This document shows, piece after piece, positions 715 to 32,729 of a stretch of 44,257 nucleotides of DNA. Numbering within the stretch: position 1 is the stretch's first letter; every line of letters begins with the position of its first letter. The stretch is from Steroidobacter sp. (GTDB lineage Bacteria; Pseudomonadota; Gammaproteobacteria; Steroidobacterales; Steroidobacteraceae). The notes below the pieces were generated by a model, which saw only the letters and a program-made list of their open reading frames with translations, searched no databases and was not told the DNA's origin. Location of the stretch: NCBI GenBank assembly GCA_025929585.1, contig JAICPY010000028.1:1-44257 (forward strand). The letters are read 5' to 3'. A program made the position numbers and the translations under genes.

Positions 715-3384
715 ATGCGACGTCCAAGTGTGTTGAGTGCATGTGCGTTGGTCACGGTGGCCGCTTCTGCGAACGCTGCCGAGCGTAGCGAACCGCACGT
801 CGAGGAAGTGATCGTCACCGGAACCAGCATTCGCGGCGTCGCGAGCGCGGGCTCGCCGGTCATTGCGCTCGATCATGAGCAACTCGTTCAGACGGGCCTT
901 GCGACTAGCAGCGATCTTGCTCGGTCGCTTCCGCAGGTGATCAATCTCGGCGCAGACGAAAGCCGGCTCGGTGGCGCGCAGGACGGAGCAGCGAATACCA
1001 CACGCATCTCAGGCATCAACCTGCGCGGCATCGGCAATGAAGCAACCTTGCTGCTCATCAACGGGCGCCGTCTCGCGCCAGCCGGTGTGATTAAATCGTT
1101 GTACGACCCGAATGTGATTCCTACAGCAGCGCTGCAACGCATGGAGGTCGTCGTCGATGGTGCATCTGCCATTTACGGTTCGGATGCCGTCGCAGGCGTG
1201 GTCAACCTCATCACGCGCTCAGACTTCGAAGGCGCAGAGACGCTGTTGCGTTACGGTTTCGCCGACGGCACGGACCAGAAAATCCTCAGTCAGAATTTTG
1301 GCTTTACTTGGGAAGGTGGCAGTCTCTTCGCGGCGTACGAACACAATGAGCGCGACAGCCTCTCGGGATCGGAGCGCGACTTCGCCACGAGTAACCGCAC
1401 TGCACGCGGCGGGTCCGATGCGCGTTCAACGCTCGCATCGCCAGGCAACATCATCTCCGGTACCGAGCGCTATCCGTTAGCCGATGGCGCGGGCACCGAC
1501 ATTACGCCTGGCTCGCTCGTGGCCGGCGCACCCAATCGCTTCGATGAAGGGTCGTTCAGCGATCTGCTCCCCAACCAAGAGCGCGACAGCTTCTTTCTCG
1601 ACGCTCGGCATCAGTTCGGTCTCTTCGACGTGTGGTACCAGGGCTGGGCTTCACGCCGCGACTTCGATGAACGCGTCTCGCCTGCCTCCGGCCAGCTACG
1701 CGTCCCGAACACGAATGCCTACTATGTCGCGCCAGCAGCGCTCGGTGCACCCGACTTCGTCAATGTGGAATACCGTTTCCTGAACGAAGACGCCGATCCA
1801 CGCCTGATTGGATATGAGAACGCGCATCAGCATGCGCTCGGGTTCGGCGTCGATCTCGGCGCGCGGTGGCGCCTCGACGCATACGCGAATCTGAGCGAGA
1901 ACCGCGGCTTCCAGCGACGCGGTGCGATTACCAACGGCGCGGCACTGAACGCGGCACTCGCGAGCAGCGATCCGGCCACAGCGTTCAATCCATTCGGCAA
2001 CGGCACGTTCAATGTAACCAACAATCCAGCGCTCGTCGATCTCATCATCGCGAATCGAGATACGCACGCTACCAGCGAGGGACGCGATATTTCCGTGAAG
2101 GCCGATGGTCCGCTATTCGCTTTGCCGGGCGGAGAGGTGCGAATGGCCGTGGGGGCCGAACGTCACGACAATGAATTTCAGCAACGCCTCGATGCAAACA
2201 ATGTCCTCGCCTCGGGTGAGGTGGTCACCAAGAATGTACTCAATCGGCGCCACAACACCTCGTTGTTCGCGGAACTGTTCGTACCCATCGTCGGGGCGGA
2301 GAATGCAGTGACGGGAATACGCTCCTTGAATCTGTCATTGGCTGCGCGGCGGGAGGACTATTCTGATTTCGGCGAAACCACTGATCCGAAAGTGGGACTA
2401 ACCTGGCAGATGCTGGAGGCGCTGTCTTTTCGTGCGACGTACGGGACGTCGTTCCGTGCGCCTTCGCTCGTGGACACGAGCGAGCAAATTCACAACATCT
2501 TCATTCAGAATCTCACCGACCCGGCGAGTGCGACAGGCGTCACCCGTGGAATCTTCCACAACGGCGGCAGCTCGACGCTGCAACCTGAAGAGGCAACGAC
2601 ATGGTCGGTCGGGCTCGATTGGACTCCGCTCGGTGCGCTCGATGGCCTGAGCGCATCGCTCACCTACTACGATGTGGACTACACGGATCGCATCGACGTT
2701 GTGCCGAATACTGCCCTCACGAATCCAGCCGTCTATGCGCCGTTCATCGTGACGCGACCACCCGCCAGCGATGTTGCGGGCAACGCTGCCTTCGATGCCC
2801 TGGTGCAGGAGTTCCTTAGCAATCCCGATCTGCAGAGTCCGACCGAGCCCGTCACCAATATCAATGCCATTGTCGATGGCCGCCGCGCGAACCTCGCGGG
2901 CATGCGCCAAACCGGGCTCGATGTGAATCTCGCCTACGCATTCGAGACTGGGCTCGGGAATTGGCGTATTGGTTTGGATGCGGCGAAGATTCTGGACCTG
3001 ACGCGCTCGACCGCGCCAGGCTTGCCGTTCCGCGATGTGCTGGACACCTTCGGCAATCCTGTCGATCTGCGCGCTCGCGCCTCGCTCGCATGGCAACTTG
3101 GTGGGCTGTCCGCTAACGTGTACTTGAACTACATCGACGGCTATCGAAATACGGCGATCTCGCCTAATGTCGAAGTCGATAGCTATGAAACCCTCGATGC
3201 CAGCATCATCTACGATTTCGGCGACAGCGGCGCGGCCTTGAGTGGCCTCAGCTTGTCGCTCAGCGGACAGAATCTCCTCGATGAGGAACCGCCGGTTGTG
3301 TTGAACGGCATCTATTCCTGGGACAACCAGAACGTCTCCCCACTCGGCCGCTTCGTTTCCGTCGCAGTGACGAAGCGGTGGTGA
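715..3384 (+). CDS. TonB-dependent outer-membrane receptor
   Basis: This is an 889-residue outer-membrane gated channel, powered by TonB, for a bulky or scarce substrate. A signal peptide (about residues 1-21, ending ANA) precedes a TonB-box-like EEVIVTG at residues 30-36. The plug domain has NLRGIG, LLLINGRR and IYGSDAVAGVVN. The rest is a beta barrel ending in the aromatic residue Trp, as expected for this family. The start has a GGGGG ribosome binding site 4 bases upstream. It heads the operon that continues with the esterase at 3378 and is clearly paralogous to the receptor at 39028-41724 (shared RGGSD region, plug motifs and C-terminal PLGR motif). The operon context suggests an aromatic or other organic acid ester as ligand; this is inference. 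Confidence 0.93.
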   Translation: MRRPSVLSACALVTVAASANAAERSEPHVEEVIVTGTSIRGVASAGSPVIALDHEQLVQTGLATSSDLARSLPQVINLGADESRLGGAQDGAANTTRISGINLRGIGNEATLLLINGRRLAPAGVIKSLYDPNVIPTAALQRMEVVVDGASAIYGSDAVAGVVNLITRSDFEGAETLLRYGFADGTDQKILSQNFGFTWEGGSLFAAYEHNERDSLSGSERDFATSNRTARGGSDARSTLASPGNIISGTERYPLADGAGTDITPGSLVAGAPNRFDEGSFSDLLPNQERDSFFLDARHQFGLFDVWYQGWASRRDFDERVSPASGQLRVPNTNAYYVAPAALGAPDFVNVEYRFLNEDADPRLIGYENAHQHALGFGVDLGARWRLDAYANLSENRGFQRRGAITNGAALNAALASSDPATAFNPFGNGTFNVTNNPALVDLIIANRDTHATSEGRDISVKADGPLFALPGGEVRMAVGAERHDNEFQQRLDANNVLASGEVVTKNVLNRRHNTSLFAELFVPIVGAENAVTGIRSLNLSLAARREDYSDFGETTDPKVGLTWQMLEALSFRATYGTSFRAPSLVDTSEQIHNIFIQNLTDPASATGVTRGIFHNGGSSTLQPEEATTWSVGLDWTPLGALDGLSASLTYYDVDYTDRIDVVPNTALTNPAVYAPFIVTRPPASDVAGNAAFDALVQEFLSNPDLQSPTEPVTNINAIVDGRRANLAGMRQTGLDVNLAYAFETGLGNWRIGLDAAKILDLTRSTAPGLPFRDVLDTFGNPVDLRARASLAWQLGGLSANVYLNYIDGYRNTAISPNVEVDSYETLDASIIYDFGDSGAALSGLSLSLSGQNLLDEEPPVVLNGIYSWDNQNVSPLGRFVSVAVTKRW

Positions 3385-5237
3385 TCGTGAGACTCGTAGC
3401 AATCGCGTTGCGCTTTGCGTGTGTGGCGGCGGTGTTGCTGCCGCCACATGCTCTGTGTGCCGACCAACAGAAGCAATCGCGGCCAGGCGTCTACGAAGGG
3501 TATTCGCAGGAGCGCTTCGATAGTTGGATCAAGACCTCTCAGTACGTGGCGATGCGCGATGATGTGCGGCTGGCCCTGGATCTATATAGGCCGGCACGCG
3601 ATGGTCGAGCGGTTGAGGAGAAATTCCCGGTGGTCTGGGCGCACACTCCTTATCGCCGCTCGTATCGTGATTCGAAGGGTGAGATCGTCAACAGCGCCGA
3701 GCAACTGCATCTGCTGCCGTTGGTGAAATACGGCTACGTCGTGGCGATCGTCGACACGCGCGGACGTGGCGCGTCCTTCGGTGCGCGGCGGGGTTTCCAG
3801 GATCGCACCGAAGCGCAGGATGCCTACGAGATGACGGAGTGGCTCGCAACGCAAGCCTGGAGCAGCGGCGCAGTCGGCATCGCAGGCTGCTCCTATCTCG
3901 GCGGCACGGCCTATCACGCTGCGACGACGATGCCGCCGCATCTTCGCGCGGTGGCCGCAGGCTGCACGGATTTTGACAAGTACGGATTCGTCAGCCGGGG
4001 CGGCATCACTGCACAGTTCAACACACGCCCGGAGGATCCCGAACAGGATTTCGGTCAGGGTGTGTTACCCGTCGATGCAGACACCGATGGCGCACTCGCG
4101 CGCGCTGCGATTGTGGAGCATGCGAAGAGCACGCCGATGGCGCCGCTGTGGCAAGGCATGCGCTTTCGCGATGATGTCTCGCCCTTGCTTGGCGTGCCCT
4201 TCTGGAAAGAAGCGAGTGTCGCGACCTATGCCGAACAGATCGAGCGTTCCGGCGTGGGATTATTCATTTGGGGAAATTGGCTGGATGAAGGCAGCTTCGA
4301 GGCAACGTTGGCGTTCAACAATCTGCGCAATCCACGCAAGCTGTGGATGGGCTCATGGGGACATTGCCAAGTCGGTGACTTCCCAATGGCCACTGAGCTG
4401 CTGCGCTTCTTCGATCATTTCTTGAAGAAGGTCGACAATGGTTGGAGGCAAGAGCCCGCCATTTACTATCGCACCACCAATGCTGCAGCAGGGACTGAGT
4501 GGCGCAGTGCGGACCGGTGGCCGTTACCTGAGGCGCGTGCGCAGACACTTCGACTCACTGCGGCCGCAGAACCCGGCGTTCCAGGTCTTCTAACGCGCAA
4601 CACGCCGCAGAAGAATGCAACAGCGGACCTCTTCGTGGTCGACTACGAGCCGAGATGCGCGCGTCCAGCAGATGCTTACTTCATGATGTGGCCGTGTACG
4701 ATCGAGGGGCATGGGCTTTCGTATGCGACCGCGCCCCTTATGCACGATGCGCACATCGCCGGACACCCGATTGCAGACTTGTGGATCTCGGCAAGCACTC
4801 CCGATGCAGATCTGTTCGTATATCTCGAAGATGTTGCTCCAGAGGGTTCCGTCACGATTGTGACCCACGGACGACTGCGCGCTTCGCATCGCGGCGAACA
4901 ACGTGCGCCCTATCGCGATTTTATGGGCCTGCCGTATCACAGCGGCGAGCGTGCAGCAGCACAACCGCTCGTGCCCGGAAAACCGGTGCGTATGCGCCTC
5001 GACCTCTTGCCCACGTCCACGATCGTCAAGTCAGGACATCGACTGCGAATCACCATTGCTGGCGCCGATCCGCGGCAGCGGTCGCGCAATGTGCAATTTG
5101 ATCCACCGCCGCAGATCCGCATCCTGCGGGATGCTGCTCACGCCTCGCAGCTCGGTGTGCCGATTGTTGGCCGCCTGGAGTTTGCAGACACAAATGACGC
5201 GCAGCGTAAGGTGGCAGATGCTGAGGGTGCCGAATGA
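3378..5237 (+). CDS. Secreted CocE/NonD-type alpha/beta-hydrolase (esterase or acylase)
   Basis: This is a serine hydrolase of the CocE/X-Pro dipeptidyl-peptidase S15 family, about 619 residues. An N-terminal signal peptide (cleavage near ALCA) points to the periplasm or outside. The expected triad is visible: nucleophile Ser172 in GCSYLGG, Asp303 in NWLDEG and His329 in SWGHC. The spacing resembles cocaine esterase. A C-terminal jelly-roll with ISASTPDADLFVYLED follows. The gene overlaps the receptor stop by a few bases. GTG codons at 3378, 3381 and 3387 are all possible starts; the last gives the most usual signal-peptide start. Located between a TonB receptor and a TRAP transporter, it probably splits an ester or amide brought into the periplasm so that the acid can enter through TRAP. 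The actual substrate is unknown. Confidence 0.88.
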   Translation: MVIVRLVAIALRFACVAAVLLPPHALCADQQKQSRPGVYEGYSQERFDSWIKTSQYVAMRDDVRLALDLYRPARDGRAVEEKFPVVWAHTPYRRSYRDSKGEIVNSAEQLHLLPLVKYGYVVAIVDTRGRGASFGARRGFQDRTEAQDAYEMTEWLATQAWSSGAVGIAGCSYLGGTAYHAATTMPPHLRAVAAGCTDFDKYGFVSRGGITAQFNTRPEDPEQDFGQGVLPVDADTDGALARAAIVEHAKSTPMAPLWQGMRFRDDVSPLLGVPFWKEASVATYAEQIERSGVGLFIWGNWLDEGSFEATLAFNNLRNPRKLWMGSWGHCQVGDFPMATELLRFFDHFLKKVDNGWRQEPAIYYRTTNAAAGTEWRSADRWPLPEARAQTLRLTAAAEPGVPGLLTRNTPQKNATADLFVVDYEPRCARPADAYFMMWPCTIEGHGLSYATAPLMHDAHIAGHPIADLWISASTPDADLFVYLEDVAPEGSVTIVTHGRLRASHRGEQRAPYRDFMGLPYHSGERAAAQPLVPGKPVRMRLDLLPTSTIVKSGHRLRITIAGADPRQRSRNVQFDPPPQIRILRDAAHASQLGVPIVGRLEFADTNDAQRKVADAEGAE

Positions 5238-5304: not shown

Positions 5305-6396
5305 ATGGAGCTGATCTTCGCGGGCGATCTCATTCTTGACGAGCCGGACCCAGACTATTGGTTGAGTGGCATCGCTCCTGCTCTGCGCGCTGCGGATGCT
5401 GCAATCGGGCATCTCGAAGTGCCTCACAGCCGGCATACCCTGCAAGTCGGCGATGATGTGCCCGCGCCAGGCGCTGATCCGGATCATTTGCCCGCGTTGG
5501 CTCGAGCAGGCTTCTGTGCCGTGACCCTCGCAGGGAACCACATCGCTGATCTAGGTGCTCCGGGCATCGCGGATACTCTCGGGGGTCTCGCAGCGGCTGG
5601 CATTAGCTATACGGGTGCCGGCATGAACCTGGCGGAGGCTAGCCGTCCGGCAATAATTGAACGCGAGGGGTACCGCATCGCGGTTCTGAGCTACAACTGT
5701 GTTGGACCGGAGGATGCCTGGGCCACGCCAACGCGCGCCGGCTGCTCATATATATGTGTGAGGTCGGCGGACGGAACCCCGCCTCGCCCATCCGCTCCCC
5801 TGGATCAGGTCGACCCAGCCGCGATCGATCTGCTTGGGGCACAAATCGGTGCCGCACGGCTGCAGGCTGATGTGGTCATCGTTGCCCTTCACAAGGGACT
5901 CGTTCACACACGGGCGCGGCTTGCACTCTATGAGCGCCACGTGGCCCATGCAGCAGTCGATGCAGGCGCCACGATCGTCGTCGGTCACCATGCGCATATC
6001 GTGCGCGGTATCGAACTGTATCGTGGCGCGCCGATCTTTCACGGCCTTGGGAACGGCTGCGTCGTGACGCGAGCCCTTTCACCCGAGCAGTCCGATCCAA
6101 AGCGTGCGGCTTGGGCGCGTCGACGTCGCGAGCTGTTCGGTTTCGAGCCCGATCCCGCTTATGAATTGGCGCCATTCCATCCTGAGGCCATCAACGCGAT
6201 GCTCGGACGCGTTCGGATCGGGGCAGATGGCGTGCACGCGGGCTTCGTTCCCGTACATGTCGATCCACCGGGGCGCCCGCGCATTGCTTTCGATCACGCC
6301 GAGCGTATAGCGCGCTATGTCGCCGATATCACAATAGAGGCGGAATTGCCGCCGCTTTCCCAGCAACTCACCAGCGAGGCCGTGTGGCTGAAGTAA
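5305..6396 (+). CDS. CapA-like metallophosphoesterase-fold protein (cytoplasmic form)
   Basis: This 363-residue protein belongs to the CapA/PgsA family, best known from poly-gamma-glutamate capsule synthesis. Metal-binding motifs are in order: GDL (Asp8), AGNH (Asn78, His79), LHKG, and GHHAH (residues 227-231). The third motif is usually HWG, so Trp is replaced by Lys here. There is no signal peptide or membrane anchor, unlike capsule CapA. It starts 67 bases after the esterase gene, and the TRAP small permease gene begins inside its end. A second member (36127-37254) also directly follows an esterase gene. No other capsule genes are present, so a hydrolase role in ester or acid metabolism is more likely than capsule synthesis. 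Function unproven. Confidence 0.8.
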   Translation: MELIFAGDLILDEPDPDYWLSGIAPALRAADAAIGHLEVPHSRHTLQVGDDVPAPGADPDHLPALARAGFCAVTLAGNHIADLGAPGIADTLGGLAAAGISYTGAGMNLAEASRPAIIEREGYRIAVLSYNCVGPEDAWATPTRAGCSYICVRSADGTPPRPSAPLDQVDPAAIDLLGAQIGAARLQADVVIVALHKGLVHTRARLALYERHVAHAAVDAGATIVVGHHAHIVRGIELYRGAPIFHGLGNGCVVTRALSPEQSDPKRAAWARRRRELFGFEPDPAYELAPFHPEAINAMLGRVRIGADGVHAGFVPVHVDPPGRPRIAFDHAERIARYVADITIEAELPPLSQQLTSEAVWLK

Positions 6397-6869
6397 AGAA
6401 CGGGAATGGCGCAAAGGAGGAGCGCGGTCCTCTCTTCTATATTGGCGCCGCCAGCTTGTTGCTTGCGACCGGCGTCGAAACGCTCGCGGTCATCGGGCGT
6501 CACATAGGTATACCGCTGCTCGGCACGCTGGAGATCATTCAAGCCTGCATCCTCGTGCTTGCATCCGCGGCGATGCTAGCGACGACGCTGAACGACTCGC
6601 ATGCGAGTGTCACGTTGTTGACTGCGCGAATGAACGAGTCTTGGCGAACACGGTTGCGTGTGTTCTCAGGTGCGTTGTCTGCTGCGTTTTTCATCTGTAT
6701 GGCCGCAGGGGCACTGTGGCTCACCATCGAGCTGTGGAACGACCATGAGAGCAGCGAGCTGCTGCGTATTCCATATAGACCGTTGCGCATTCTCTCCTTC
6801 GTCGCTGCGGCAGCCATCGCGTTTGTCTTCCTGCGTGATCTGTGGCGTGCCGCGCGAGGCCAGCCATGA
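6384..6869 (+). CDS. TRAP transporter small permease (DctQ-like)
   Basis: This 161-residue membrane protein has four hydrophobic segments (about residues 20-40, 50-68, 92-115 and 132-152), the layout of DctQ subunits of tripartite ATP-independent periplasmic transporters. It starts at GTG 6384, overlapping the CapA-like gene by 13 bases; no in-frame ATG lies nearby. Its stop overlaps the start of the large permease gene in an ATGA. With DctM and the binding protein at 12682 it should import a carboxylate using the sodium or proton gradient. Small permeases are poorly conserved, so the call leans partly on the neighbour. Confidence 0.87.
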   Translation: MAEVKNGNGAKEERGPLFYIGAASLLLATGVETLAVIGRHIGIPLLGTLEIIQACILVLASAAMLATTLNDSHASVTLLTARMNESWRTRLRVFSGALSAAFFICMAAGALWLTIELWNDHESSELLRIPYRPLRILSFVAAAAIAFVFLRDLWRAARGQP

Positions 6870-8158
6870 ACGGTCTGCTCGGTGTCATTGCGATGCTCGT
6901 GCTGCTCACGCTCGGCGTGCCGATCGGCGTATCGATGGGCATTGTCGGGCTGGTCGGTCTGAGTCTATTGCTCGGTCCGGAGCCTGCGATCATCAAGTCG
7001 AGCATCCTGCTGTTCGAAACCATCACTCGCTATGAGCTCGGCGTCTTGCCACTGTTCTTGCTGATGGCGCATCTGTGTTTCGCGGCGGATGCCAGCCGAG
7101 ATTTCTTCGATGCCGCTGCACGCATGGTGGGACATCGTCGCGGCGGCCTAGCGATCGCATCCATTGCGGGGTGCGCCGGCTTCGGCACGATGAGCGGCTC
7201 GAGCCTCGCGACGGCGGCCACTATCGGCTTGATCGGTCTGCCGGAAATGCGCAAACGCGGTTATTCCGATGCACTCGCCACTGGCGCGATTGCCGCTGGC
7301 GGGACGCTCGGCTCTATCATTCCGCCTTCGGGTGCATTGATCGTGTTTGGCATTTTGGCCGAGATTTCCATCGGCAAGCTGTTCACGGCCGCAATCCTGC
7401 CTGGCATCACACAGGCGCTGTTCTATATCGTCACTATCGTGCTGCTGTGTCGGTGGCGCCCGTCAATCGGGCCTGCCATGCCCAAAGCGTCATGGGCCGA
7501 GCGACGCGCTGCTCTGCTGCGAATGCTCGATCTCACCGTTCTCATCCTGCTCGTGCTCGGCGGTATTGCACTCGGCTGGTTTACACCGACGGAAGCGGCC
7601 TCAATTGGCGCGAGCGGCGCATTGGTGTTGTGTGCCTTGCGCGGCAAGTTGAACCGTCGCTCGCTCGAGCATGCGATGCGTCAAACCCTGCGCACGACCG
7701 GCATGATCTATGTCGTCATTATCGGTGCGCTCATTTTTTCGGTGTTCATGAGCGTGACTGGCTTGGCGGAGCATATCTCGCAGTTCGTTGAAGGCCTGCC
7801 CGGCGGCCAATGGACAGCGATCTTCGCCATCACGCTGATGCTGCTCGCCCTGGGCTCGGTCCTCGATGGGCTCGCGATGATGCTGCTGACAACGCCGATC
7901 TTGCTGCCAATCATCACGCACCTCGGGTTTTCGCCGCTGTGGTTCGGCATCTTTCTGATCCGGACCATGGAGATCGGCTTCGTGCATCCGCCGATCGGCA
8001 TCAATCTTTACGTCATCCAGGGAATCGCGCAGGACGTGCCGCTTGGACGCATCTTCAAGGGAGTGGTGCCGTTCTTAGCCGCCGACTTGCTTCATCTGAT
8101 ACTCCTGATTGCAATGCCAGCGCTCGCGCTCGCGTTGCCAGGATGGCTGCACCAATGA
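6866..8158 (+). CDS. TRAP transporter large permease (DctM-like)
   Basis: This is a 430-residue inner-membrane transport subunit of the DctM family with about 12 hydrophobic helices. Typical features are the opening LTLGVPIGVSMGIVG, the segment FGTMSGSSLATAATIG, the loop GTLGSIIPPSG, and a C-terminal HPPIGINLYVIQG. The start is ATG 6866, in an ATGA overlap with the small permease; an earlier in-frame ATG at 6842 lies inside that gene and is unlikely. It carries the substrate across the membrane. Its partner binding protein is encoded 4.5 kb downstream, after three enzyme genes, which suggests that transport and the following CoA chemistry belong to one pathway. Confidence 0.94.
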   Translation: MNGLLGVIAMLVLLTLGVPIGVSMGIVGLVGLSLLLGPEPAIIKSSILLFETITRYELGVLPLFLLMAHLCFAADASRDFFDAAARMVGHRRGGLAIASIAGCAGFGTMSGSSLATAATIGLIGLPEMRKRGYSDALATGAIAAGGTLGSIIPPSGALIVFGILAEISIGKLFTAAILPGITQALFYIVTIVLLCRWRPSIGPAMPKASWAERRAALLRMLDLTVLILLVLGGIALGWFTPTEAASIGASGALVLCALRGKLNRRSLEHAMRQTLRTTGMIYVVIIGALIFSVFMSVTGLAEHISQFVEGLPGGQWTAIFAITLMLLALGSVLDGLAMMLLTTPILLPIITHLGFSPLWFGIFLIRTMEIGFVHPPIGINLYVIQGIAQDVPLGRIFKGVVPFLAADLLHLILLIAMPALALALPGWLHQ

Positions 8159-9222
8159 ACTTTCATACGCTGATCGATACGGCCATACACGAGCCCCTTG
8201 CTATTGCGAGCAACGAGCACGTGGTTGGTTACGTGGGTGCGGACAACCCGATCGAGTTGATCCTTGCCGCGCAAGCGCGCCCGATACGACTGCGTGGCAG
8301 ATCGAGCTTGCCGACCGCAAATGCAGATCGGTTCGTTGAAGCAAGCTTCTCCGCCTCATCGAGGCGCATCGCAGAGCAATGGCTTGCTGGCGAGTTCGAT
8401 GCGTTGCAGACGGTGATCTTCTCACGCAGCGATGACAACGCGCAGCGACTCTACTATTACGTCTGCGAATTACAGCGCACTGGCCAGTGCGCAGGCCCCA
8501 CACCGCTGCTGTTCGACATCGCAGGAATACAGCGTGCGAGCAGCGCTGCCTATACAGTGGAGTCGGTTCAACGACTCGCAGCAAGCCTCGGCACGGTGCC
8601 CGCGCAACTGCCGCATGCAATTGCGCAAGCGCAGCGGCGTTTTCATCTATTGAATCGATTCGCGCAGCAGCGCGCGATGGGCCATATACCGGGCACCCTC
8701 GCCCATCGTGTGCTGCGAGCTGCCGAGAGTCAGTGGACTATCGAGTTCGACAACGCGTTCGAACGGTGGCTCGACTCGTTGCGGCCAACGACTACCTATC
8801 GCCGATTAGTACTGGTTGGCAGCGAGCCAGCCGATGAACGGCTGCACGAAGCTATCGAAGCGGTTGGCGCGAGCTTCATTGCCGAGATCAATGAGGCTGC
8901 CCACGTCGACCATGTGGCGCATGCTTATGAAGACCCACTCGTCGCGATCGCAACACGTTGTCATCGTCGCATGCATGATGCCCAAGCTGTGCTGCGCAGC
9001 GCTGACTTACTCACAAAACGGATACGCAGCCTCCAGGCCGACGGCGCCGTTCTCTGGCTTGCCGCAAGCGACACCGGACTTGCGTGGGAAGCCCCGCGAA
9101 TCGAGCACGGGTTGCGCAGTGCAGGATGCGCCGTTCTGCGATTGGTTCTGCAGGGAGCGGATGCCGACGCTGCAACACTGGAGCGCGTCGCTCACTTTTC
9201 GCGCACGCTGGAGGTACAGTGA
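8155..9222 (+). CDS. HgdB-like 2-hydroxyacyl-CoA dehydratase/benzoyl-CoA reductase family subunit lacking cluster cysteines
   Basis: This 355-residue protein starts at ATG 8155 (ATGA overlap with dctM). Its opening, VVGYVGADNPIELILAA, matches the family's N-terminal signature. Known members bind a [4Fe-4S] cluster through Cys residues, two of them in Cys-Asp pairs. Aligned by eye, those positions read Ser here: S66, S68 or S69 in ASFSASSRR, S92-D93 in FSRSDDNAQRLY and S305-D306 in LAASDTGLAWE. The flanking residues are kept, so the change looks specific. The remaining cysteines (near VCELQ, TGQC, TRCHR, AGCAV) do not sit at ligand positions. A cluster-dependent electron transfer therefore looks unlikely for this subunit. 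Its partner is probably the HgdA-like protein at 11393. Function unknown. Confidence 0.75.
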   Translation: MNFHTLIDTAIHEPLAIASNEHVVGYVGADNPIELILAAQARPIRLRGRSSLPTANADRFVEASFSASSRRIAEQWLAGEFDALQTVIFSRSDDNAQRLYYYVCELQRTGQCAGPTPLLFDIAGIQRASSAAYTVESVQRLAASLGTVPAQLPHAIAQAQRRFHLLNRFAQQRAMGHIPGTLAHRVLRAAESQWTIEFDNAFERWLDSLRPTTTYRRLVLVGSEPADERLHEAIEAVGASFIAEINEAAHVDHVAHAYEDPLVAIATRCHRRMHDAQAVLRSADLLTKRIRSLQADGAVLWLAASDTGLAWEAPRIEHGLRSAGCAVLRLVLQGADADAATLERVAHFSRTLEVQ

Positions 9223-11396
9223 GTTTGCTCAAGGGGATCCGCGCGCTCGCGCTTGATGAAGCTGCCGACAGCGCGCTGGCTCGGCTGCTTGCAAGTCTAG
9301 GAGTGGAGTTGCAGCCCTGCACACTCGACCGCCTGCACGAAGAGATTCGCGTGGCCGACGTGCTGATCGAGCGCTCAGGGCTATCGAAGTTAGCGAAGGC
9401 TGGTTTTCCGCGCGATGCTATCGAAGACCTGAATCCGCGGCTCATTCATGTATCGGTGACGACGTTCGGCAGCACCGGACCACGCGCCGCATGGCGCGGC
9501 TCAGAGCTAGTTGCCTCCGCCATGGGTGGCACGTTGCGCCTGACGGGAGATCCTGATCGCGCGCCAGTCAAAGAGGCGCTCGATGCCTGCTGGTTTCATG
9601 CCGAGATGGCCGCCGCGGCCGGCGTCAACGCCGCATTGTGGGATCGCGAGCTCACCGGTCGCGGACAACACGTCGACATCTCCGTGCAGGAGGTCGCGTT
9701 CTCGCGCAACGTGAATGGTGTGCTGGTGTGGCAATTCGATCGCCGCAAACTGCATCGAGTAGGCGGCGCACTCAACTACGGCCGCGCGACAGTGCGTTGC
9801 ATCTGGCCGCTCGCCGATGGCTACTGTTTTCACACGCTCATGACGGGGCGCTTCGGAGCGCCAGCCAACCAAGGCTTGAGCGACTGGATCGATGCCTGCC
9901 GTCTTCCTAATCCGCTGCGTGGCGTTGACTGGACAACCTACAACCGCTCGACGCTTGATGCGACCACGCGTGCCACATGGGAGCGCGCGATCGAAGCTTT
10001 CTTTCGAACCCGAACGCGGCGCGAGATCGCAGAGGAAGGCTCACGGCGCGGAATCAACGCAACGGTTATCGCAGAACCCGCCGACGTGCTCGCGGATCAG
10101 CACCTCACGGCGCGCCAGTTTTGGTCCGGTCCTCTAGGCCGCAGAGAACCCGCTCGTTTCGTCAACATTACCCCGGGGCCCGCGACCGTTCCAGCGTCAC
10201 CGCGCAAGGCGATCGATGAGCGATCAGGACCTTTGCGCGGCATTCGCGTGCTCGATTTCTCATGGGCATTGGTCGGTTCGATCACTACCAAGATTCTCGG
10301 CGACCTCGGATGCGCCGTCGTGAAGGTGGAATCTCGCTCTCGCCCGTGTTTGTCTCGACTCGATGTGCAGGTCGCTGCTTCCCGACCGGATAGCCTCGAT
10401 GACAAACCTTGGTTCGCACACCTGAATACGTCTAAACGAAGCCTTGCGCTCGACTTGAAGGTGCCGCAGAGCCGCACGGTACTCGAACCGTTGCTCGAGT
10501 GGGCCGATGTGGTCGTAGAGAACTTCTCACCTGGCACGATGGCGAAACTCGGGCTGGACTATGCCGCGCTGTCAAAGAAACATCCCGCGTTGATCATGGT
10601 CTCGGGGAGTGTCTTCGGACAAACCGGCCCGCTCGCGAGCTCATGGGGCGTGGATGGCACGGGCGCGGCACTGTCTGGTCGCACGTTGCTCACCGGTTGG
10701 GCCGATCGCGACCCAGTCATCCCTGGCGCAGTGCCTTACGGGGATGTCATCGTGCCCTACGTGATGGCAGCCGCGCTGTCCGCTGCGCTCGTGCAACGCG
10801 CGCGCACTGGACGCGGCTGCCACATCGACGCAGCCATGTATGAGATCTGCGTGCAGCAGATGCGCGACTCGATCTTGGCTGCAGAGCGCGGCGAGCGTCC
10901 GATGCGTCAAGGCAATGACGACCCAGGTGTTTATCACCAGGCTGTTTATCCCGCGCGCGGAGAGGATCAATGGATTGCGCTCACGGTGTACTCGCGCGAT
11001 GAATGGCAACGTCTATGCGCGTTCGCGGGATTGCTAGGTGCTGAGCGCTCCGTAGAAAGCGAGGCAGCGCTTTCCGAGTGGTGCCGCAAGCACGACGCGG
11101 AAAATCTCGCGGAGCAACTGCAGAGTAGCGGGCTGGCCGCGGGTGCAGTTCAAGACATCGAAGATCTCATGGAGCGAGACCCGCAGATTGCCGCGCGCGA
11201 GGCGCTCGTGTCTCTCGATCATCCGTCGCTCGGTGCATTTGGGCACATGCGCACACCAATCACCTTCTCGCGAACCGTGCCCCTGCCCTACCGCGCACCT
11301 CGCCTGGGTGAACACAGCGACACGATCGCGCAAGACATCGCGGGCTTGAGTCCGGATCAACTTCGCGAGCTGCACGCATTAAGAGTGTTTCAATGA
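9219..11396 (+). CDS. Fused double-domain CaiB/BaiF (family III) CoA-transferase
   Basis: The 725-residue product holds two CaiB-type CoA-transferase units in tandem: a degenerate one (about 1-330) and a fuller one (about 338-720, opening GPLRGIRVLDFSWAL). Family III enzymes move CoA between carboxylic acids through an aspartyl-CoA anhydride. At the catalytic Asp position both units carry Glu: E158 in DISVQEVAF and E542 in HIDAAMYEIC. The single-domain enzyme at 13718 keeps Asp203 in the same motif. Start GTG 9219 overlaps the previous stop (GTGA); the longer upstream frame lies inside that gene. It sits between the two dehydratase-like genes and probably supplies or uses their CoA thioester. 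It could be an intramolecular version of two-subunit enzymes such as benzylsuccinate CoA-transferase. Confidence 0.85.
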   Translation: MSLLKGIRALALDEAADSALARLLASLGVELQPCTLDRLHEEIRVADVLIERSGLSKLAKAGFPRDAIEDLNPRLIHVSVTTFGSTGPRAAWRGSELVASAMGGTLRLTGDPDRAPVKEALDACWFHAEMAAAAGVNAALWDRELTGRGQHVDISVQEVAFSRNVNGVLVWQFDRRKLHRVGGALNYGRATVRCIWPLADGYCFHTLMTGRFGAPANQGLSDWIDACRLPNPLRGVDWTTYNRSTLDATTRATWERAIEAFFRTRTRREIAEEGSRRGINATVIAEPADVLADQHLTARQFWSGPLGRREPARFVNITPGPATVPASPRKAIDERSGPLRGIRVLDFSWALVGSITTKILGDLGCAVVKVESRSRPCLSRLDVQVAASRPDSLDDKPWFAHLNTSKRSLALDLKVPQSRTVLEPLLEWADVVVENFSPGTMAKLGLDYAALSKKHPALIMVSGSVFGQTGPLASSWGVDGTGAALSGRTLLTGWADRDPVIPGAVPYGDVIVPYVMAAALSAALVQRARTGRGCHIDAAMYEICVQQMRDSILAAERGERPMRQGNDDPGVYHQAVYPARGEDQWIALTVYSRDEWQRLCAFAGLLGAERSVESEAALSEWCRKHDAENLAEQLQSSGLAAGAVQDIEDLMERDPQIAAREALVSLDHPSLGAFGHMRTPITFSRTVPLPYRAPRLGEHSDTIAQDIAGLSPDQLRELHALRVFQ

Positions 11397-12685
11397 GTAC
11401 CCTTTCACATGGCGGCCAACGCAGCCGCAAAGATCTCGAATGCACGGCGGCCGCTACCGCTTACCAGCGTGCATTTATCGCCGATCTCAAGCGGCGCGTT
11501 GTGGACAATGGCGAGCCCTTCGCAATCGCGCAGGCCGACACGCCACACGAGATCTTTCATGCGATGGACATCGCGCTCGTGACGAATCAGTGGTGGTCGG
11601 CCTATATCTCGGCGAAGCAATTATCCACTCACTATGACGCGGTGCTCGAGCGTCGTGGTTATCCCTCGAACCGCTGCCGCTATTGCACGCTCGGTCTCGC
11701 GTGCACGCTAGACAACGATCCTAAACGCGCTCCATGGGGCGGACTGCCGAAGCCCACTGTCCTCGTCGCGCGTCTCACATGCGAGTGCATCGAGCATGTT
11801 TTCTCTCAATGGGCGCAAGCGCTGGGGACGGAATTCTTCCCACTGGAAGCGCCTGGCTGGCAGCACAAGGATCCGCAATGGTTCGAGCACTCGCAGGAGA
11901 ACTGGAGCGAAGTGTACGAGGAGCGACGGATCGAGTTGCTCGTCACGGAAATGCGCGAGCTGATCGCGTTGCTCGAGGCTCGTACTGGCCGTCGCTTCGA
12001 TGAAGCGAAGTTCGAATCGCTGATGCATGCAATCAACGAACAGGAAGGCTACATCGCGGAAGCTGCACAACTGATCGGCGCGGCACGTCCGTGTCCGGTC
12101 TCGATAGCAGATCAAATGCCGAACACGATGATTCCACAATGGCATCGCGGCTCGCCGTGGGCGGTCGCGCATGCGAAGCGCTTCCGCGACGAAGTGGTTC
12201 AACGGGTGGCCGCGGGCCAAGGTGTTGGACAACGCGAGCGTTTACGTTTGATGTGGATCGGAGCCGGTCTGTGGCACGACCCAGGTTTTTATAGTGCGCT
12301 CGAAGATCGCTATGGCGCGGTCTTCGTATGGTCTATGTATATGCCCTTTGCCGGCCCGCAATACATTCGCGCAGTGCAAGGACGGCCGCTGCATGCGCTC
12401 GCGAGCCGAATCTGCTCGATGAACGAGGTGTTGCATTTACCGCCTTGGATGAATGAGTGGATGGTCAGCGAGGCGCGTCGTTGCGATATCGACGCTGCCG
12501 TGATGCTAGTCCCACCGGACAATCGTCTCTCCCAATCTGGTACCAAGATCACTCAGCAGGCGCTCGCACGCGCCGGCATCCCGACGCTCGCGCTCGATGC
12601 CGACATGGTCAACGCGCGCGACTGGAGTCACGAACGAATGGTCGAGCACGTCGCGAGCTTCTTGCGGCAGGAGCAACTGCTGTGA
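11393..12685 (+). CDS. HgdA-like 2-hydroxyacyl-CoA dehydratase family subunit
   Basis: This 430-residue protein belongs to the 2-hydroxyacyl-CoA dehydratase/benzoyl-CoA reductase group (HgdA, FldB, BcrB type). Cysteines at family ligand positions are seen at Cys95/Cys98 (SNRCRYC) and Cys130/Cys132 (LTCEC). The third ligand, usually in an NR-S-C motif before GIPTL, reads NRLSQSG (residues 377-383), so Cys appears replaced by Ser. The C-terminal GIPTLALDAD is typical. The gene overlaps the CoA-transferase stop (ATGA) and the lipoprotein start (GTGA). Known relatives remove water from 2-hydroxyacyl-CoA or reduce aromatic CoA esters and need an ATP-dependent activator, none of which is encoded here. 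Substrate and reaction are unknown; aryl-lactyl-CoA would fit the neighbourhood. Confidence 0.8.
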   Translation: MSTLSHGGQRSRKDLECTAAATAYQRAFIADLKRRVVDNGEPFAIAQADTPHEIFHAMDIALVTNQWWSAYISAKQLSTHYDAVLERRGYPSNRCRYCTLGLACTLDNDPKRAPWGGLPKPTVLVARLTCECIEHVFSQWAQALGTEFFPLEAPGWQHKDPQWFEHSQENWSEVYEERRIELLVTEMRELIALLEARTGRRFDEAKFESLMHAINEQEGYIAEAAQLIGAARPCPVSIADQMPNTMIPQWHRGSPWAVAHAKRFRDEVVQRVAAGQGVGQRERLRLMWIGAGLWHDPGFYSALEDRYGAVFVWSMYMPFAGPQYIRAVQGRPLHALASRICSMNEVLHLPPWMNEWMVSEARRCDIDAAVMLVPPDNRLSQSGTKITQQALARAGIPTLALDADMVNARDWSHERMVEHVASFLRQEQLL

Positions 12686-13734
12686 GGAGCATGCTGATCC
12701 TCTTCTTCGCGTGTCTCGCCGCGTGCGTTCACCAAGAAGCCGGTGTCACGGAGCTGAGCTACGCGAGTCCGTACTCACCGGGACACCCGTTCAGCCGTGC
12801 CGACATCACCTGGATGCAATGGGTGGAGCAGCAGTCGGGCGGCACGTTGCGCGTCAAACCATTTTGGGGCGGCACGCTGCTGTCTTCCGAGCACTCGATG
12901 ATCGAGCTGCGCCATGGCGTAGCCGATATTGGATTGATCACACCAATCTACGCTCGCGGCGGCACGCACCTGATCCGCGCGCAAGCGGGCTTCTATGTCG
13001 ACATGGACACCTTCGAGCAACAGACTACGCTCTATCGGTGCATGGCCGCTGCGCACCCGCAGTTTGCGAGAGAGCTACATGGACTCGTGACTTTAGCGGT
13101 TCAAGGCGGCAATTTGCCTGGCATCGTCACGCGCGAGCGTGCGGTTCGCTCGTTGGAGGACTTGCGTGGTCTGCGGCTACGCGCACCCTCCGAGTTGCTG
13201 CCGGTGCTGGAGCATCTCGGCGCCGACCCCGTCGATATGCCGATGGGCGAAGTTTATTCTGCGTTAGCCAAAGGCGTTCTCGACGGAGTACTCGCACCTG
13301 CCGACACGTTGCGCTCACTGCATTTCGCTGAGGTCGCAAGCTATTTCAACACGATCAAGATTCCGCGCGGTGCCTACGCAGCGCGGGCGATGGGCAGCAA
13401 GCGTTGGTCCTCGCTGACCGCCGAGCATCGCGCATTACTCGAGCGCAGCACCGCAGTGTGGGAGGCCGCGCTTGCACGCGAGATCAAGCTCGCAGAAGAA
13501 GCTGGCTTCGCCGCAGGTGTCGCGAAGGGCGTCGAGTTTCACGACATCTCACCTGAAGACCAGGCCGCGTTCGATCGGGTGTATGCGCAGGATGGGGAAG
13601 CACGCGCGCGGCAGCTCGATCGCTTCGGCATCGATGGGCTTGCCGTATTCCGCGACGCACGCGCCTTCGCCCAGCAGTTGGATAAATCAAATCGCTCAAC
13701 ATGCATGAGAGAACAGCATGAGCCGACCGCTTGA
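12682..13734 (+). CDS. TRAP transporter substrate-binding lipoprotein (DctP-like)
   Basis: This is a 350-residue solute-binding protein of the DctP family. The N-terminus (MRSMLILFFACLAAC) ends in the lipobox LAAC, with Cys15 as lipid-anchored residue, so it should be a membrane-tethered periplasmic lipoprotein rather than a free one. Family features include YSPGHPFSRA, GGTLLSSEHSMIEL near the start, DLRGLRLRAPSEL in the middle and VYSALAKGVLDGVLAP. Start GTG 12682 lies in a GTGA overlap with the previous gene; ATG 12691 is the alternative. It serves the permeases at 6384-8158. The ligand is presumably the carboxylic acid later linked to CoA by the neighbouring transferases. Confidence 0.88.
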   Translation: MRSMLILFFACLAACVHQEAGVTELSYASPYSPGHPFSRADITWMQWVEQQSGGTLRVKPFWGGTLLSSEHSMIELRHGVADIGLITPIYARGGTHLIRAQAGFYVDMDTFEQQTTLYRCMAAAHPQFARELHGLVTLAVQGGNLPGIVTRERAVRSLEDLRGLRLRAPSELLPVLEHLGADPVDMPMGEVYSALAKGVLDGVLAPADTLRSLHFAEVASYFNTIKIPRGAYAARAMGSKRWSSLTAEHRALLERSTAVWEAALAREIKLAEEAGFAAGVAKGVEFHDISPEDQAAFDRVYAQDGEARARQLDRFGIDGLAVFRDARAFAQQLDKSNRSTCMREQHEPTA

Positions 13735-14920
13735 CGGCATACGCATTGCAGATTTCAGCCACGTGATGGCGGGTCCATTCGCGACGCACCTACTCAGGCT
13801 GCTTGGCGCGGAGGTGATCAAGATCGAGGCGCCGGGCCGCGGTGACGCAATGCGCACCTATGGCGCGGACCGCCGCTACGACGGCATGGCGCCAGCCTTC
13901 ATCGGCATCAATGCGGGCAAGAAGTCCATCACCCTGGATCTCAAGCAGCCGTTGGGCAAAGAAGCTGCGAGGCGCTTGATCGGGACAGCGGATGTCGTCG
14001 TCGAGAACTTTCGACCCGGTGTCATGAAGAAGTTCGGACTCGACTATGCTTCCGTGTGCGAGCTGCGTCCGGGACTCATTTATTGTTCGGTCTCAGGATA
14101 CGGGCAGAATGGTCCGCGCCGCGATTGGCCAGCGATCGACAATATTGTGCAAGCGACGAGCGGAATGATGTCATTGGGTGGCGCCGCCGGTGATGGTCCT
14201 GCACGTGTCGGCTTCCCCGTTGTCGACACGCTTACAGGTCAGACCGCCGCGTTCGCGATTGTTGCCGCGCTATTGCGCCGAGAACGCCAAGGTCGCGGCG
14301 AGCACATCGACGTCGCCATGTTCGATGCCAGTCTCGCGTTCATGACGTCCGCAATCGTGCCGTATCTAGTCACCGGCAAACCGCCCGAGCGCACCGGTAA
14401 CGTCGGCTACAGCGGTCAACCGACCTCCGGCATCTTTACCGCGCAGGATCGGCGGCAGGTCTCGCTAGGCGTCGTGCAACAAGCGCAGTTCGAAGCATTC
14501 GCCCGCGAAGTCGGTCGACCCCAGTGGCTGAGCGATGCGCGCTTTCGTACGCCGGACCTGCGCCGCGAGCATGCGCACGCTATGCATGAGGAGCTGGAGC
14601 AACTGTTTCGTGAAGCGCCCGCCGCACAATGGGAAGCTCGACTGAGCGCCGCGGGGATTCCCTGCGGCATGGTGCGCGATGTAACCGAGGCCGCTTCGCT
14701 CCCAGCGCTCGAGGAGCGAAGACTCAAGATCGGATTACGTGTGCCGCATCTGCCCGAGCGCGAAGACATCGAGATCGTCAACGCCGGCTTTCTGTTTAGC
14801 GAGGACACACCGGGTGTTGCCGCTGCGCCGCCGCGTCTAGGCGAGCATAACGATGAGATCTTCGCAGCCCTCGGGTTCGACGCGGCTGAGTGCGCCGCCC
14901 TTGCACGCAGGACTGCTTAG
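13718..14920 (+). CDS. CaiB/BaiF family CoA-transferase
   Basis: This is a 400-residue family III CoA-transferase of normal length. It opens with RPLDGIRIADFSHVMAGPF and has GAEVIKIEAPG, the loop INAGKKSITLDL, and HIDVAMFDASL with the catalytic Asp203 in place. It overlaps the end of the binding-protein gene by 17 bases; GAGAGAAC upstream of ATG 13718 can serve as ribosome binding site. It is the last gene of the plus-strand operon and converges on the ligase gene at 14941 with only 20 bases between. It probably transfers CoA to the acid imported by the TRAP system. Because it has the normal Asp, it may be the true CoA-transferase of the module. Donor and acceptor are unknown. Confidence 0.92.
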   Translation: MSRPLDGIRIADFSHVMAGPFATHLLRLLGAEVIKIEAPGRGDAMRTYGADRRYDGMAPAFIGINAGKKSITLDLKQPLGKEAARRLIGTADVVVENFRPGVMKKFGLDYASVCELRPGLIYCSVSGYGQNGPRRDWPAIDNIVQATSGMMSLGGAAGDGPARVGFPVVDTLTGQTAAFAIVAALLRRERQGRGEHIDVAMFDASLAFMTSAIVPYLVTGKPPERTGNVGYSGQPTSGIFTAQDRRQVSLGVVQQAQFEAFAREVGRPQWLSDARFRTPDLRREHAHAMHEELEQLFREAPAAQWEARLSAAGIPCGMVRDVTEAASLPALEERRLKIGLRVPHLPEREDIEIVNAGFLFSEDTPGVAAAPPRLGEHNDEIFAALGFDAAECAALARRTA

Positions 14921-21231: not shown

Positions 21232-23434
<2,203 letters not shown>

Positions 23435-23441
23435 GCTTGGA

Positions 23442-24434
23442 TCAGCCTGCGCGAGCATGTTCCTCCTCGTCCGTGTCGATCTCGGCGAGCGTCGCAGCGG
23501 CATAGCGCGCACCGCTCACCGTGACGTCGCTCACCAGCTGTTCAACGCGTGCAAGGATGTCTGCCGGAACGCGCAGTGTGACCGCCGCGAGATTCTCACG
23601 TAGATGCGTAATGGACGTGGTCCCGATGATGGGCAGGACGTTCGGATGCTGCAGTAACCAAGCGAGGGCAAGCTGCGCGGGTGTGCAATTCGCCTCTTGC
23701 GCGAGTTGTTCGAACCGCTCGAGGACTGCTGCGTTAGCTGCGAAATGCGGTGCTTGAAAGCGCGGCATGCCTCGGCGCAAATCGTTTGCCGTCAGCGCCT
23801 GCGGATCGCGCACCGCGCCAGCAAGAAAGCCGCGACCGAGCGGCGAGAATGCGACGAACGTTGCGTCGAGCTGACGGCACGCTTCAACTACCGCGCTCGA
23901 GGCACGCGTCCACAGCGAATACTCACTTTGCACCGCTGCAATCGGATGTACCGCGTGAGCGCGTCGCAGCGTCGCGGCTGACACCTCCGATAAACCAATC
24001 GCCCCGATGGCGCCGCTCCCCACTAGATCGGCTAGTGCACCTACGCTCTCCTCGATAGGAACTCGTTTGTCCCAGCGATGCAGATAATAAAGATCGATCC
24101 GGTCCGTGCGCAGGCGCCGCAGTGATTCATGACAGGTGCGCTTGAGTGTCTCGGGACGACCATCGATCACGCGCTTGCCGTCGACGCCGGTCATGCCACA
24201 TTTGCTCGCGAGCACGATCCGCTCTCGGAAGAGAGCGAGCGTTTCGCCGAGCAGTTCCTCGTTGCGACCGAAGCCGTATAGCGCCGCGGTATCGAAGTGC
24301 GTGACACCAGCCTCGAGCGCCGCAAGCAGCAAAGCTTGCGCCGCTTCGCGCGGCGGCGGCGTGCCATACGCATGGCTGAGGTTCATGCAGCCCAGGCCGA
24401 TCGGAAACACGTCGTGACCGGCAAGTTTCGTCAT
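23442..24434 (-). CDS. Aldo/keto reductase
   Basis: This is a 330-residue NADPH-dependent oxidoreductase with the TIM-barrel aldo/keto reductase fold. The catalytic tetrad is visible: Asp in FDTAALYG, Tyr in the same motif, Lys in VLASKCG and His in YYLHRWD. Cofactor-binding wording near the C-terminus is PIIGTTSITHLREN. It starts at ATG 24434, 7 bases after the ligC stop, with GAGG as ribosome binding site. It is the last gene of the lig operon and ends 7 bases from the end of the convergent regulator gene. No reductase of this type is needed in the 4,5-cleavage pathway; it could detoxify an aromatic aldehyde or semialdehyde. Substrate unknown. Confidence 0.88.
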   Translation of the reverse strand: MTKLAGHDVFPIGLGCMNLSHAYGTPPPREAAQALLLAALEAGVTHFDTAALYGFGRNEELLGETLALFRERIVLASKCGMTGVDGKRVIDGRPETLKRTCHESLRRLRTDRIDLYYLHRWDKRVPIEESVGALADLVGSGAIGAIGLSEVSAATLRRAHAVHPIAAVQSEYSLWTRASSAVVEACRQLDATFVAFSPLGRGFLAGAVRDPQALTANDLRRGMPRFQAPHFAANAAVLERFEQLAQEANCTPAQLALAWLLQHPNVLPIIGTTSITHLRENLAAVTLRVPADILARVEQLVSDVTVSGARYAAATLAEIDTDEEEHARAG

Positions 24435-24441
24435 CGCGACC

Positions 24442-26621
<2,180 letters not shown>

Positions 26622-26635
<14 letters not shown>

Positions 26636-27545: not shown

Positions 27546-27546
27546 G

Positions 27547-30547: not shown

Positions 30548-30568
30548 GACCCTGCCGTCCGGCTTGGA

Positions 30569-31240: not shown

Positions 31241-31323
31241 GGCTTCCCCTTGATTGCCGACTATTGTGCGCCCGGGATGCGGAAGGCTGCCAATTGGAAA
31301 ACGAGCCGAGCCATAAGGAATTG
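31241..31323 (-). promoter_or_regulatory. Gap before ligK with a weak promoter candidate
   Basis: The 83 bases between the MmgE/PrpD gene and ligK are the largest break inside the long minus-strand gene run from 38807 to 23442. On the minus strand TTGGCA (31293-31288) and CACAAT (31268-31263) are separated by 19 bases, a suboptimal spacing. A separate lig promoter here is possible but weakly supported. Confidence 0.25.
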
Positions 31324-32727: not shown

Positions 32728-32729
32728 GT

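Follow-up and report, generated by a model that had tools for sequence, protein, structure and literature searches.

In the 44,257-nucleotide stretch of Steroidobacter sp. DNA analyzed here (contig JAICPY010000028.1, positions 1 to 44,257, hereafter the window), an open reading frame at 8155-9222 on the forward strand encodes HGDb, a 355-residue protein of the HGD-D superfamily (PF06050) in which none of three cluster-ligand positions carries cysteine. HGDb is probably the beta-type half of an alpha-beta pair, HGDab, which descends from the benzoyl-CoA reductase (BCR) and 2-hydroxyacyl-CoA dehydratase (HAD) family but has given up radical chemistry, and on the whole this is the explanation that fits best. 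Two papers describe the members of the BCR/HAD family as iron-sulfur (Fe-S) enzymes of the radical type which depend on an ATP-driven activase (PMC11971306, PMC11574389), and the electron passes from the activase to the beta cluster, which serves both electron transfer and storage, and from there to the alpha cluster (PMC11574389).

Results

The ATG start of the HGDb reading frame overlaps the stop of the upstream gene for DctM, of a tripartite ATP-independent periplasmic (TRAP) transporter, and its own stop overlaps a GTG at which the next gene, CaiB2, probably starts. In profile searches HGDb scored 61.6 bits against PF06050 (cut-off 28.4); HGDb and its partner HGDa were the only two proteins to match this family in the window's own genome, which is 97.6% complete in 297 contigs. 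The AlphaFold2 model of HGDb, for which 72 aligned window and locus proteins served as input, had a mean predicted local distance difference test (pLDDT) score of 95.4, and its top Foldseek matches were the beta-type chains BzdN (8s02_B) and HadC (3o3n_B), each with a template modeling (TM) score of 0.84 by query, followed by the double-cubane-cluster protein (DCCP) and MbdN and then by alpha chains. All 20 matches at E <= 0.001 were BCR, HAD or DCCP chains, so that the fold is that of a BCR/HAD subunit, and the profile match between HadC and HGDb had an E value of 8.2e-20. By sequence and predicted fold HGDb is a true HGD-D superfamily protein, as an earlier note on this DNA, made from the letters alone, had supposed; the possibility that it is not an HGD-D protein was rejected on the PF06050 score and the Foldseek matches. 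The equivalog model for the double-cubane-cluster protein (NF040772) gave 20.9 bits for HGDb, against a cut-off of 350.

Relatives were collected by a scan of genome contigs with the HGDa alignment, which returned 300 relatives, and the best 80 of these 300 were kept (loci L018-L097). Six canonical proteins of the beta or double-cubane type (L106, L107, L108, L115, L118 and L120) served to place the ligand columns of HGDb, and all six have Cys at the columns which correspond to HGDb residues 66, 93 and 306. Beside these controls the alignment contained 77 module rows (the window, five plasmid loci and 71 scan loci; L017 was counted as a module row) and three sister rows, L008, L111 and L112, which were counted apart. 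The main counts do not include L088, a fragment of 169 residues, or L004, L005, L006, L007 and L010; no Cys was seen in any ligand column of the latter five, of which L007 stops before the third column.

At columns 66, 93 and 306 Cys is present in none of the 77 module rows, the two gaps that occur there both belonging to L093, whose start is cut off. In HGDb itself the three Cys are replaced by S66 (codon 8350-8352), D93 (codons of D93 and D94, 8431-8436) and D306 (codon 9070-9072). The first column is variable (Ala in 34 rows, Pro in 19, Ser in nine, Asp in six, Glu, Thr and Gln in two each, Leu and Met in one each, one gap), so Ser is not conserved there. The second is mostly Asp (58 rows, with Asn in six, Ser in five, Glu and Thr in two each, Ala, Leu and Pro in one each and one gap), and the third is acidic in all 77 rows (Asp in 61, Glu in 16). 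Close to these columns E62 is found in 76 of the 77 rows (one gap) and Arg91 in 75. It should be noted that Cys-free columns in one protein alone would mean nothing, because the module HGDb rows carry few Cys (one to eight in 259-393 residues); they matter here because all six controls have Cys at these columns and no module row does. Judged by this loss of ligands, HGDb would be free of iron.

The residues S92 and S305 are those which precede the lost Cys. A separate check of the register with phmmer, using the relative L092, agreed gap-free with BzdN, HadC and MbdN at the third site; at the second site the same register was obtained with HadC and MbdN, and with BzdN a gap falls there. The earlier note had read Ser in place of all three cluster Cys. 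Its observation that no Cys remains at the ligand positions stands, but the replacements are Ser, Asp and Asp, and the pairs S92-D93 and S305-D306, which it had taken for former Cys-Asp pairs, are one residue out of register at the second and third sites, as judged by the six controls and by phmmer. Similarly, its statement that two such pairs keep their Asp is right for the first, where D94 is the kept Asp (Asp in 71 module rows, Glu in five, one gap), and wrong for the other, where T307 follows the lost Cys; this second pair is not universal, since the six controls read His (two), Asp (two), Glu (one) and Thr (one) after the third Cys. The note had also allowed for Cys elsewhere in the protein filling the ligand positions. 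HGDb has four Cys of its own, at 104, 112, 269 and 325, and all were rejected as ligands; Cys104 lies, in the AlphaFold2 model, ten residues into a helix which starts at D94, and none of the six controls has Cys in its column. Although not a ligand column, Cys104 (window 8464-8466) stands in a motif YYYxCELQ and is kept in 63 of the 77 rows.

The partner HGDa (430 residues; 11393-12685, forward strand) scored 160.4 bits against PF06050, and its AlphaFold2 model (mean pLDDT 91.1) best matched the alpha-type chains BzdO, MbdO and HadB, with TM scores of 0.78-0.81 by query. In BzdO, according to PMC11971306, the cluster is held by Cys95, Cys128 and Cys380, Glu65 and His131 are the acid/base residues, and the thioester oxygen is gripped by Tyr97, Tyr298 and Gln274; HadB coordinates its cluster in the same way but has Ala for His131. 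Across an alignment of 86 module rows and four canonical rows the first two ligands of HGDa, Cys95 and Cys130, are each kept in 85 of 86 module rows. The column of the third ligand, Cys in all four controls, is N377 in HGDa and reads Asn in 71 module rows, Ser in nine, Cys in two and Asp, His and Thr in one each, with one gap. The catalytic Glu (Glu65 of BzdO, Q66 in HGDa) is present in all four controls; the module rows have Gln in 85 cases and Thr in one. Three extra Cys, none of which occurs in the four canonical rows, are found at 98 (85/86), 104 (80/86) and 132 (82/86). HGDa thus does not have the three alpha-cluster Cys that mark the radical enzymes, for which the extra Cys could substitute.

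The columns of BzdO Tyr97 and Tyr298 are Y97 and Y316 in HGDa, and each is Tyr in all 86 module rows; the canonical alpha rows have Tyr in three and Phe in one at column 97, and Tyr in two of four at column 316. The column of Gln274 is Ala291 in the window HGDa. On sequence grounds, this is the pattern of a kept CoA-ester pocket beside an altered cluster site. Of the possible roles which the earlier note had named (CoA-ester binding, scaffold, hydration), the first finds some support, in HGDa rather than in HGDb.

A search of the window's own genome with the activase family PF01869 gave no match. The same search covered 33 genomes that carry the module or a relative: 28, mostly of named strains, belong to the 80 scan loci, and five come from the order. 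PF01869 was matched at E 0.001 in 13 of the 33, and in five of these above the cut-off, at eight places. All eight above-cut-off proteins were nearest to the N-acetylglucosamine kinase model, though under the cut-off of that model, and TIGR00241, the activase model, listed none of them, while a Rhizobium activase used as control meets it at 166 bits; the matches in these five genomes were therefore rejected as activases. Ten of the 11 sub-cut-off matches listed sit in reading frames of 503-877 residues. No dehydratase activase was thus found in the window genome or in the 33 genomes. A second set of 13 genomes included six more carriers. All four genomes in it with canonical HGD proteins have activase-family genes; a module genome (G354) and a sister genome (G574) have no activase-family match, the genome of L068 has none above the cut-off, and one above-cut-off protein, again N-acetylglucosamine-kinase-like, occurs in each of three others, namely the sister genome G548 and the genomes that carry L095 and L097.

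The module is rare and patchy. Within the order, seven of 196 genomes match HGDb at E 0.001, the window's own included; within the class only the own genome, one of 369, matches HGDa at 1e-30; and within the phylum ten of 398 genomes have a PF06050 match at E 0.001, eight of them above the cut-off (own included). The best 80 loci are spread over several taxa, among them Steroidobacter, Novosphingobium, Erythrobacteraceae, Asticcacaulis and Phenylobacterium; metagenome-assembled genomes (MAGs) of Acidobacteria, Deltaproteobacteria and Sterolibacterium are also represented, with an identity of about 50%. Much the same gene order is found on named Novosphingobium and Croceicoccus plasmids. Identity of HGDa to the window is 64-85% in 73 of the 80 rows and 49-51% in the remaining seven, and HGDb diverges much faster, with 21-45% against the 49-85% of HGDa.

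The pairing of alpha and beta subunit genes, a mark of the BCR/HAD family, was found in 66 of the 67 loci with at least 4.5 kb of upstream sequence, where HGDb lies close to HGDa (in L088 as a fragment); the exception is L091. Eight of the 80 scan loci have no HGDb, the contig ending upstream in seven of them and L091 having none within 10 kb. Between the two genes of the window lies CaiB2 (9219-11396, forward strand; 725 residues from the assumed GTG start), a fused double family III CoA-transferase with two stretches that match PF02515. The earlier note had asked whether such homologues always occur beside a double CaiB gene: this is usual, with a fused CaiB2 near the pair in 57 of 67 loci, but not universal, as the other ten have a single, a split or no CaiB2. 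The C-terminal half of CaiB2 carries D509 (codon 10743-10745), which by its position we take to be the catalytic Asp of family III CoA-transferases, and the N-terminal half has Trp at the equivalent position. Over 69 rows this Asp is present in all of the C-terminal halves and in none of the N-terminal halves, where Thr is found in 53. In CaiB2, too, a degenerate half is thus joined to one that is intact.

A tree was built from selected rows, 57 proteins in all, and in it the module and sister HGDb formed one clade on the canonical beta side (23 rows, support 100/98), and HGDa formed one clade next to the canonical alpha rows (24 rows, 100/99). Support is weaker (86/61 and 93/65) at the forks by which the two clades are joined to individual canonical rows. 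Several rows have long branches (beta L111, L112 and L008; canonical L120) and ten are of unusual composition, so that the exact places of these rows are unsure. HGDb is under purifying selection, though evolving faster than HGDa: in 21 locus pairs (75-97% identity, dS under 2.5) the ratio of nonsynonymous to synonymous substitution rates (dN/dS) of HGDb had a median of 0.16 and a range of 0.065-0.38, and in all eight pairs for which both genes are listed it was above that of HGDa, by a bare margin in one. Together with the absence of Cys from the ligand columns and the close pairing with HGDa, this gives good support to a loss of the beta cluster ligands in a gene which is kept in a tight operon, as the earlier note had suggested.

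Several loci differ from the window in ways that should be recorded. HGDa lacks all five Cys in L017 (Rhizobium sp. SSA_523), L111 and L112. The L017 pair (L017:8935-11342, plasmid pHM3) shares its locus with two MmgE/PrpD genes and two CaiB genes, both single, and in the sister lineage L112 (L112:106-2664, the same place as L117) both HGD subunits are fused in one frame of 853 residues. The pair of a deltaproteobacterial MAG, L092:3986-9783, lacks Cys at the beta ligand columns and is a possible evolutionary intermediate; its locus has several genes for CaiB and, close by, one for a glycyl-radical protein resembling pyruvate formate-lyase. In L088 (Novosphingobium sp. ERN07) CaiB2 is in four pieces and HGDb and DctP are fragments, which indicates either a decaying copy or an assembly problem.

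Discussion

Taken by sequence, HGDab is a coherent branch of the BCR/HAD family, but it should not be classed with the radical dehydratases, because it fails on the functional marks that were tested, namely the beta ligands, the third alpha ligand, the catalytic Glu and the activase. With no beta cluster and no activase, no low-potential electron would reach the alpha site, and lacking an electron path HGDab would not be an ATP-driven radical dehydratase or reductase. The non-radical role proposed in the earlier note is favored by the absence of a detected activase and by the altered cluster and acid residues of the partner, although this support is indirect.

Among known systems, HGDb resembles BzdN, the beta-type subunit of class I benzoyl-CoA reductase (PDB 8s02 chain B), in its fold and in the pairing of its gene with that of an alpha-type subunit. 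BzdN carries an [8Fe-9S] cluster on six Cys (36, 73, 100, 263, 293 and 327; PMC11971306); HGDb, unlike BzdN, has none of the three control-tested Cys, and its genome has no activator by PF01869. HadC, the beta subunit of (R)-2-hydroxyisocaproyl-CoA dehydratase (PDB 3o3m/3o3n), again shares the fold (TM 0.84 for 3o3n_B), but its cluster is held by three Cys and fed by an activase (PMC11574389), neither of which was found for HGDb. On the alpha side HGDa shares with BzdO, MbdO and HadB the fold and two ligand Cys columns, and keeps the Tyr97 and Tyr298 columns of BzdO; it differs in having Gln for the catalytic Glu, Asn for the third Cys and the extra Cys98, Cys104 and Cys132. A further pair, the canonical HGD pair L120, comes from a plasmid of Rhizobium leguminosarum, an alphaproteobacterium. 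It is likewise of the PF06050 type but, unlike HGDab, retains Cys and Glu in their columns, and two activase-annotated genes lie nearby. In the phenyllactate dehydratase FldABC the gene of a family III CoA-transferase stands beside the HGD pair, as at the window locus. The window differs from FldABC in its fused, double transferase, in the lack of any activator among the matches and in the make-up of the operon; its genes are adjacent as in FldABC, and by this adjacency an FldABC-like physical complex may be formed. Among the literature matches listed there was no description of the HGDab branch or its operon, most subscription papers (e.g., that on the HadBC structure) lying outside the scope of the search.

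A mechanism can be outlined from these features. HGDb would act as a structural and gating subunit in which the former cluster pocket has become an acid pocket, and HGDa as the CoA-ester-binding and likely catalytic subunit, which keeps both of the tyrosines that grip the thioester oxygen of BzdO and whose Cys95, Cys98, Cys104, Cys130 and Cys132 may hold a different metal centre, or none. Uptake across the outer membrane and cleavage of an ester would be followed by TRAP import of a carboxylic acid, which CaiB2 and CaiB1 would process in cooperation with HGDab. The step on the CoA ester may be a non-redox hydration, dehydration or lyase reaction, which is our guess. Going further, and tentatively enough that we hold some doubt ourselves, HGDab could be an oxygen-tolerant, non-radical branch, the beta site rebuilt as an acid pocket and the alpha site as a Cys-rich metal site (metal-free in L017, L111 and L112), which carries out an ordinary CoA-ester reaction with a fused CoA-transferase, L092 being a living intermediate.

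A number of observations weigh against a pair without radical chemistry. Five Cys of HGDa, two canonical and three extra, are kept in nearly all rows, and an alpha Fe-S cluster could still be formed because HGDa keeps two canonical ligands plus three more Cys. In L091 and L092 none of the three canonical alpha Cys is missing, and Gln stands in place of the Glu; among the three sister rows, one (L112) shows a Cys at column 93 of HGDb in the alignment. Absence of the activase fails for the distant carriers L091, L092 and L094, because their genomes have several strong activase-family matches, and an activase gene may have been missed in the window genome, since its assembly is incomplete and in 297 contigs. 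Finally, Bzd-type activators are predicted to bind only transiently (PMC11971306), and an unrelated electron donor in place of an activase is possible.

As a rival reading, HGDab may still be a redox or Fe-S enzyme, with one cluster in HGDa on Cys95, Cys130 and one of Cys98, Cys104 or Cys132, which would either serve as a Lewis acid in the manner of aconitase or receive electrons from some donor, HGDb having lost the relay cluster only. The conservation of the five Cys (80-85 of 86 rows each, three of them absent from the four controls) argues for it, as does the AlphaFold2 model, in which C95 and C130 precede two helices so that C98 and C132 could lie near. We nevertheless consider it rather unlikely, given that the third canonical ligand is Cys in 2/86 rows and the catalytic Glu present in 0/86, that L017, L111 and L112 dispense with all five Cys, and that no activase was found for the main clade; the named carrier genera are generally known as aerobes, which also counts against it. 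Less likely again is a pure scaffold, HGDa and HGDb both being dead and serving to organize or regulate CaiB2 in an FldABC-like complex. The fused CaiB2 encoded near their genes in most loci, its division into a half without Asp and a half with it, and the loss of the catalytic Glu from HGDa would all suit such a role, but the conservation of HGDa and the invariance of residues around its former active site exceed what a scaffold needs, and the ten of 67 loci in which no fused CaiB2 was found still have HGDa.

For HGDb itself, its beta pocket might bind a metal through new acids (D93, D306 and perhaps E62) rather than a cluster. Columns 93 and 306 would be near each other in the fold, because both are cluster-ligand columns in the controls, and column 306 is always acidic, column 93 Asp in 58 of 77 rows and E62 nearly invariant; on the other hand Ala or Pro prevails at column 66, 19 of the 77 rows (one a gap) lack Asp at column 93 and Arg91 may simply pair with the acids, and we find this quite unlikely. 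That HGDb is a decaying relic without function would explain its faster divergence, its dN/dS above that of HGDa and the fragment in L088. This reading is unlikely, and to our minds very much so, in the face of a median dN/dS of 0.16, a place near HGDa in 66 of 67 loci and a confident fold model.

That a conserved branch lacks beta ligands, catalytic Glu and, in the main clade, any detected activase is a sign that this fold may be put to other uses in the absence of its radical cofactor, and if the non-radical branch is real, a fold built for extreme low-potential radical chemistry now serves an ordinary CoA-ester reaction. The graded losses of Cys offer a natural series for how a metalloenzyme loses its metal. 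In practical terms the automatic label "2-hydroxyacyl-CoA dehydratase family protein" may mislead for HGDab genes, and the operon is a defined target for work on a catabolic pathway in Novosphingobium, Steroidobacter and their relatives.

Gene neighborhood

All operon genes of the window described here lie on the forward strand. The first encodes a TonB-dependent receptor-like protein (715-3384), a recurrent member which matches the TonB-dependent receptor annotations in L013 and L015. It is followed by a CocE/NonD-type hydrolase (3378-5237; PF02129, 141.1 bits), to which similar genes annotated CocE/NonD exist in the relatives and whose N-terminus looks by eye like a signal peptide, and by a CapA-like protein (PGA_cap), also recurrent (5305-6396; PF09587, 177.1 bits). 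The TRAP small permease DctQ (6384-6869; PF04290, 59.8 bits) and large permease DctM (6842-8158; PF06808, 336.3 bits), the latter overlapping the start of HGDb, stand upstream of the pair. Downstream of HGDa are the TRAP solute-binding protein DctP (12685-13734, start assumed; PF03480, 107 bits) and the single family III CoA-transferase CaiB1 (13718-14920; PF02515, 384.6 bits), whose best NCBIfam match was succinate--glutarate CoA-transferase with 253.3 bits, under the cut-off of 750.

Many of these neighbors recur with the module. DctM was found in 58 and CapA in 54 of the 63 loci with 7 kb of upstream sequence, DctP in 63 and CaiB1 in 61 of the 70 loci with 3 kb downstream, and among 51 loci with 9 kb on both sides CocE was present in 43, TonB in 44 and CapA in 46. 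The Pfam matches of the neighbors (hydrolases, MmgE/PrpD, major facilitator superfamily transporters and CoA-transferases) point to no unique pathway. Our guess is that the substrate is probably a carboxylic acid freed from an ester, because hydrolases and the TRAP transporter recur nearby.

As a side observation, the minus strand of the window carries a protocatechuate 4,5-cleavage cluster at 21232-38858, with genes for 4-hydroxybenzoate 3-monooxygenase, a LigB-type dioxygenase, 4-oxalomesaconate tautomerase and the LigK aldolase, and in addition two amidohydrolases, an MmgE/PrpD-like protein, an Abhydrolase_10 protein, a second CapA-like protein and a tannase/feruloyl esterase. Two CapA-like (PGA_cap) proteins, at window 36127-37413 and 5305-6396, are thus found in one catabolic region, and genes resembling the second CapA-like protein and the PrpD-like protein both recur near the HGD module in L030, L049, L088, L089 and L092.

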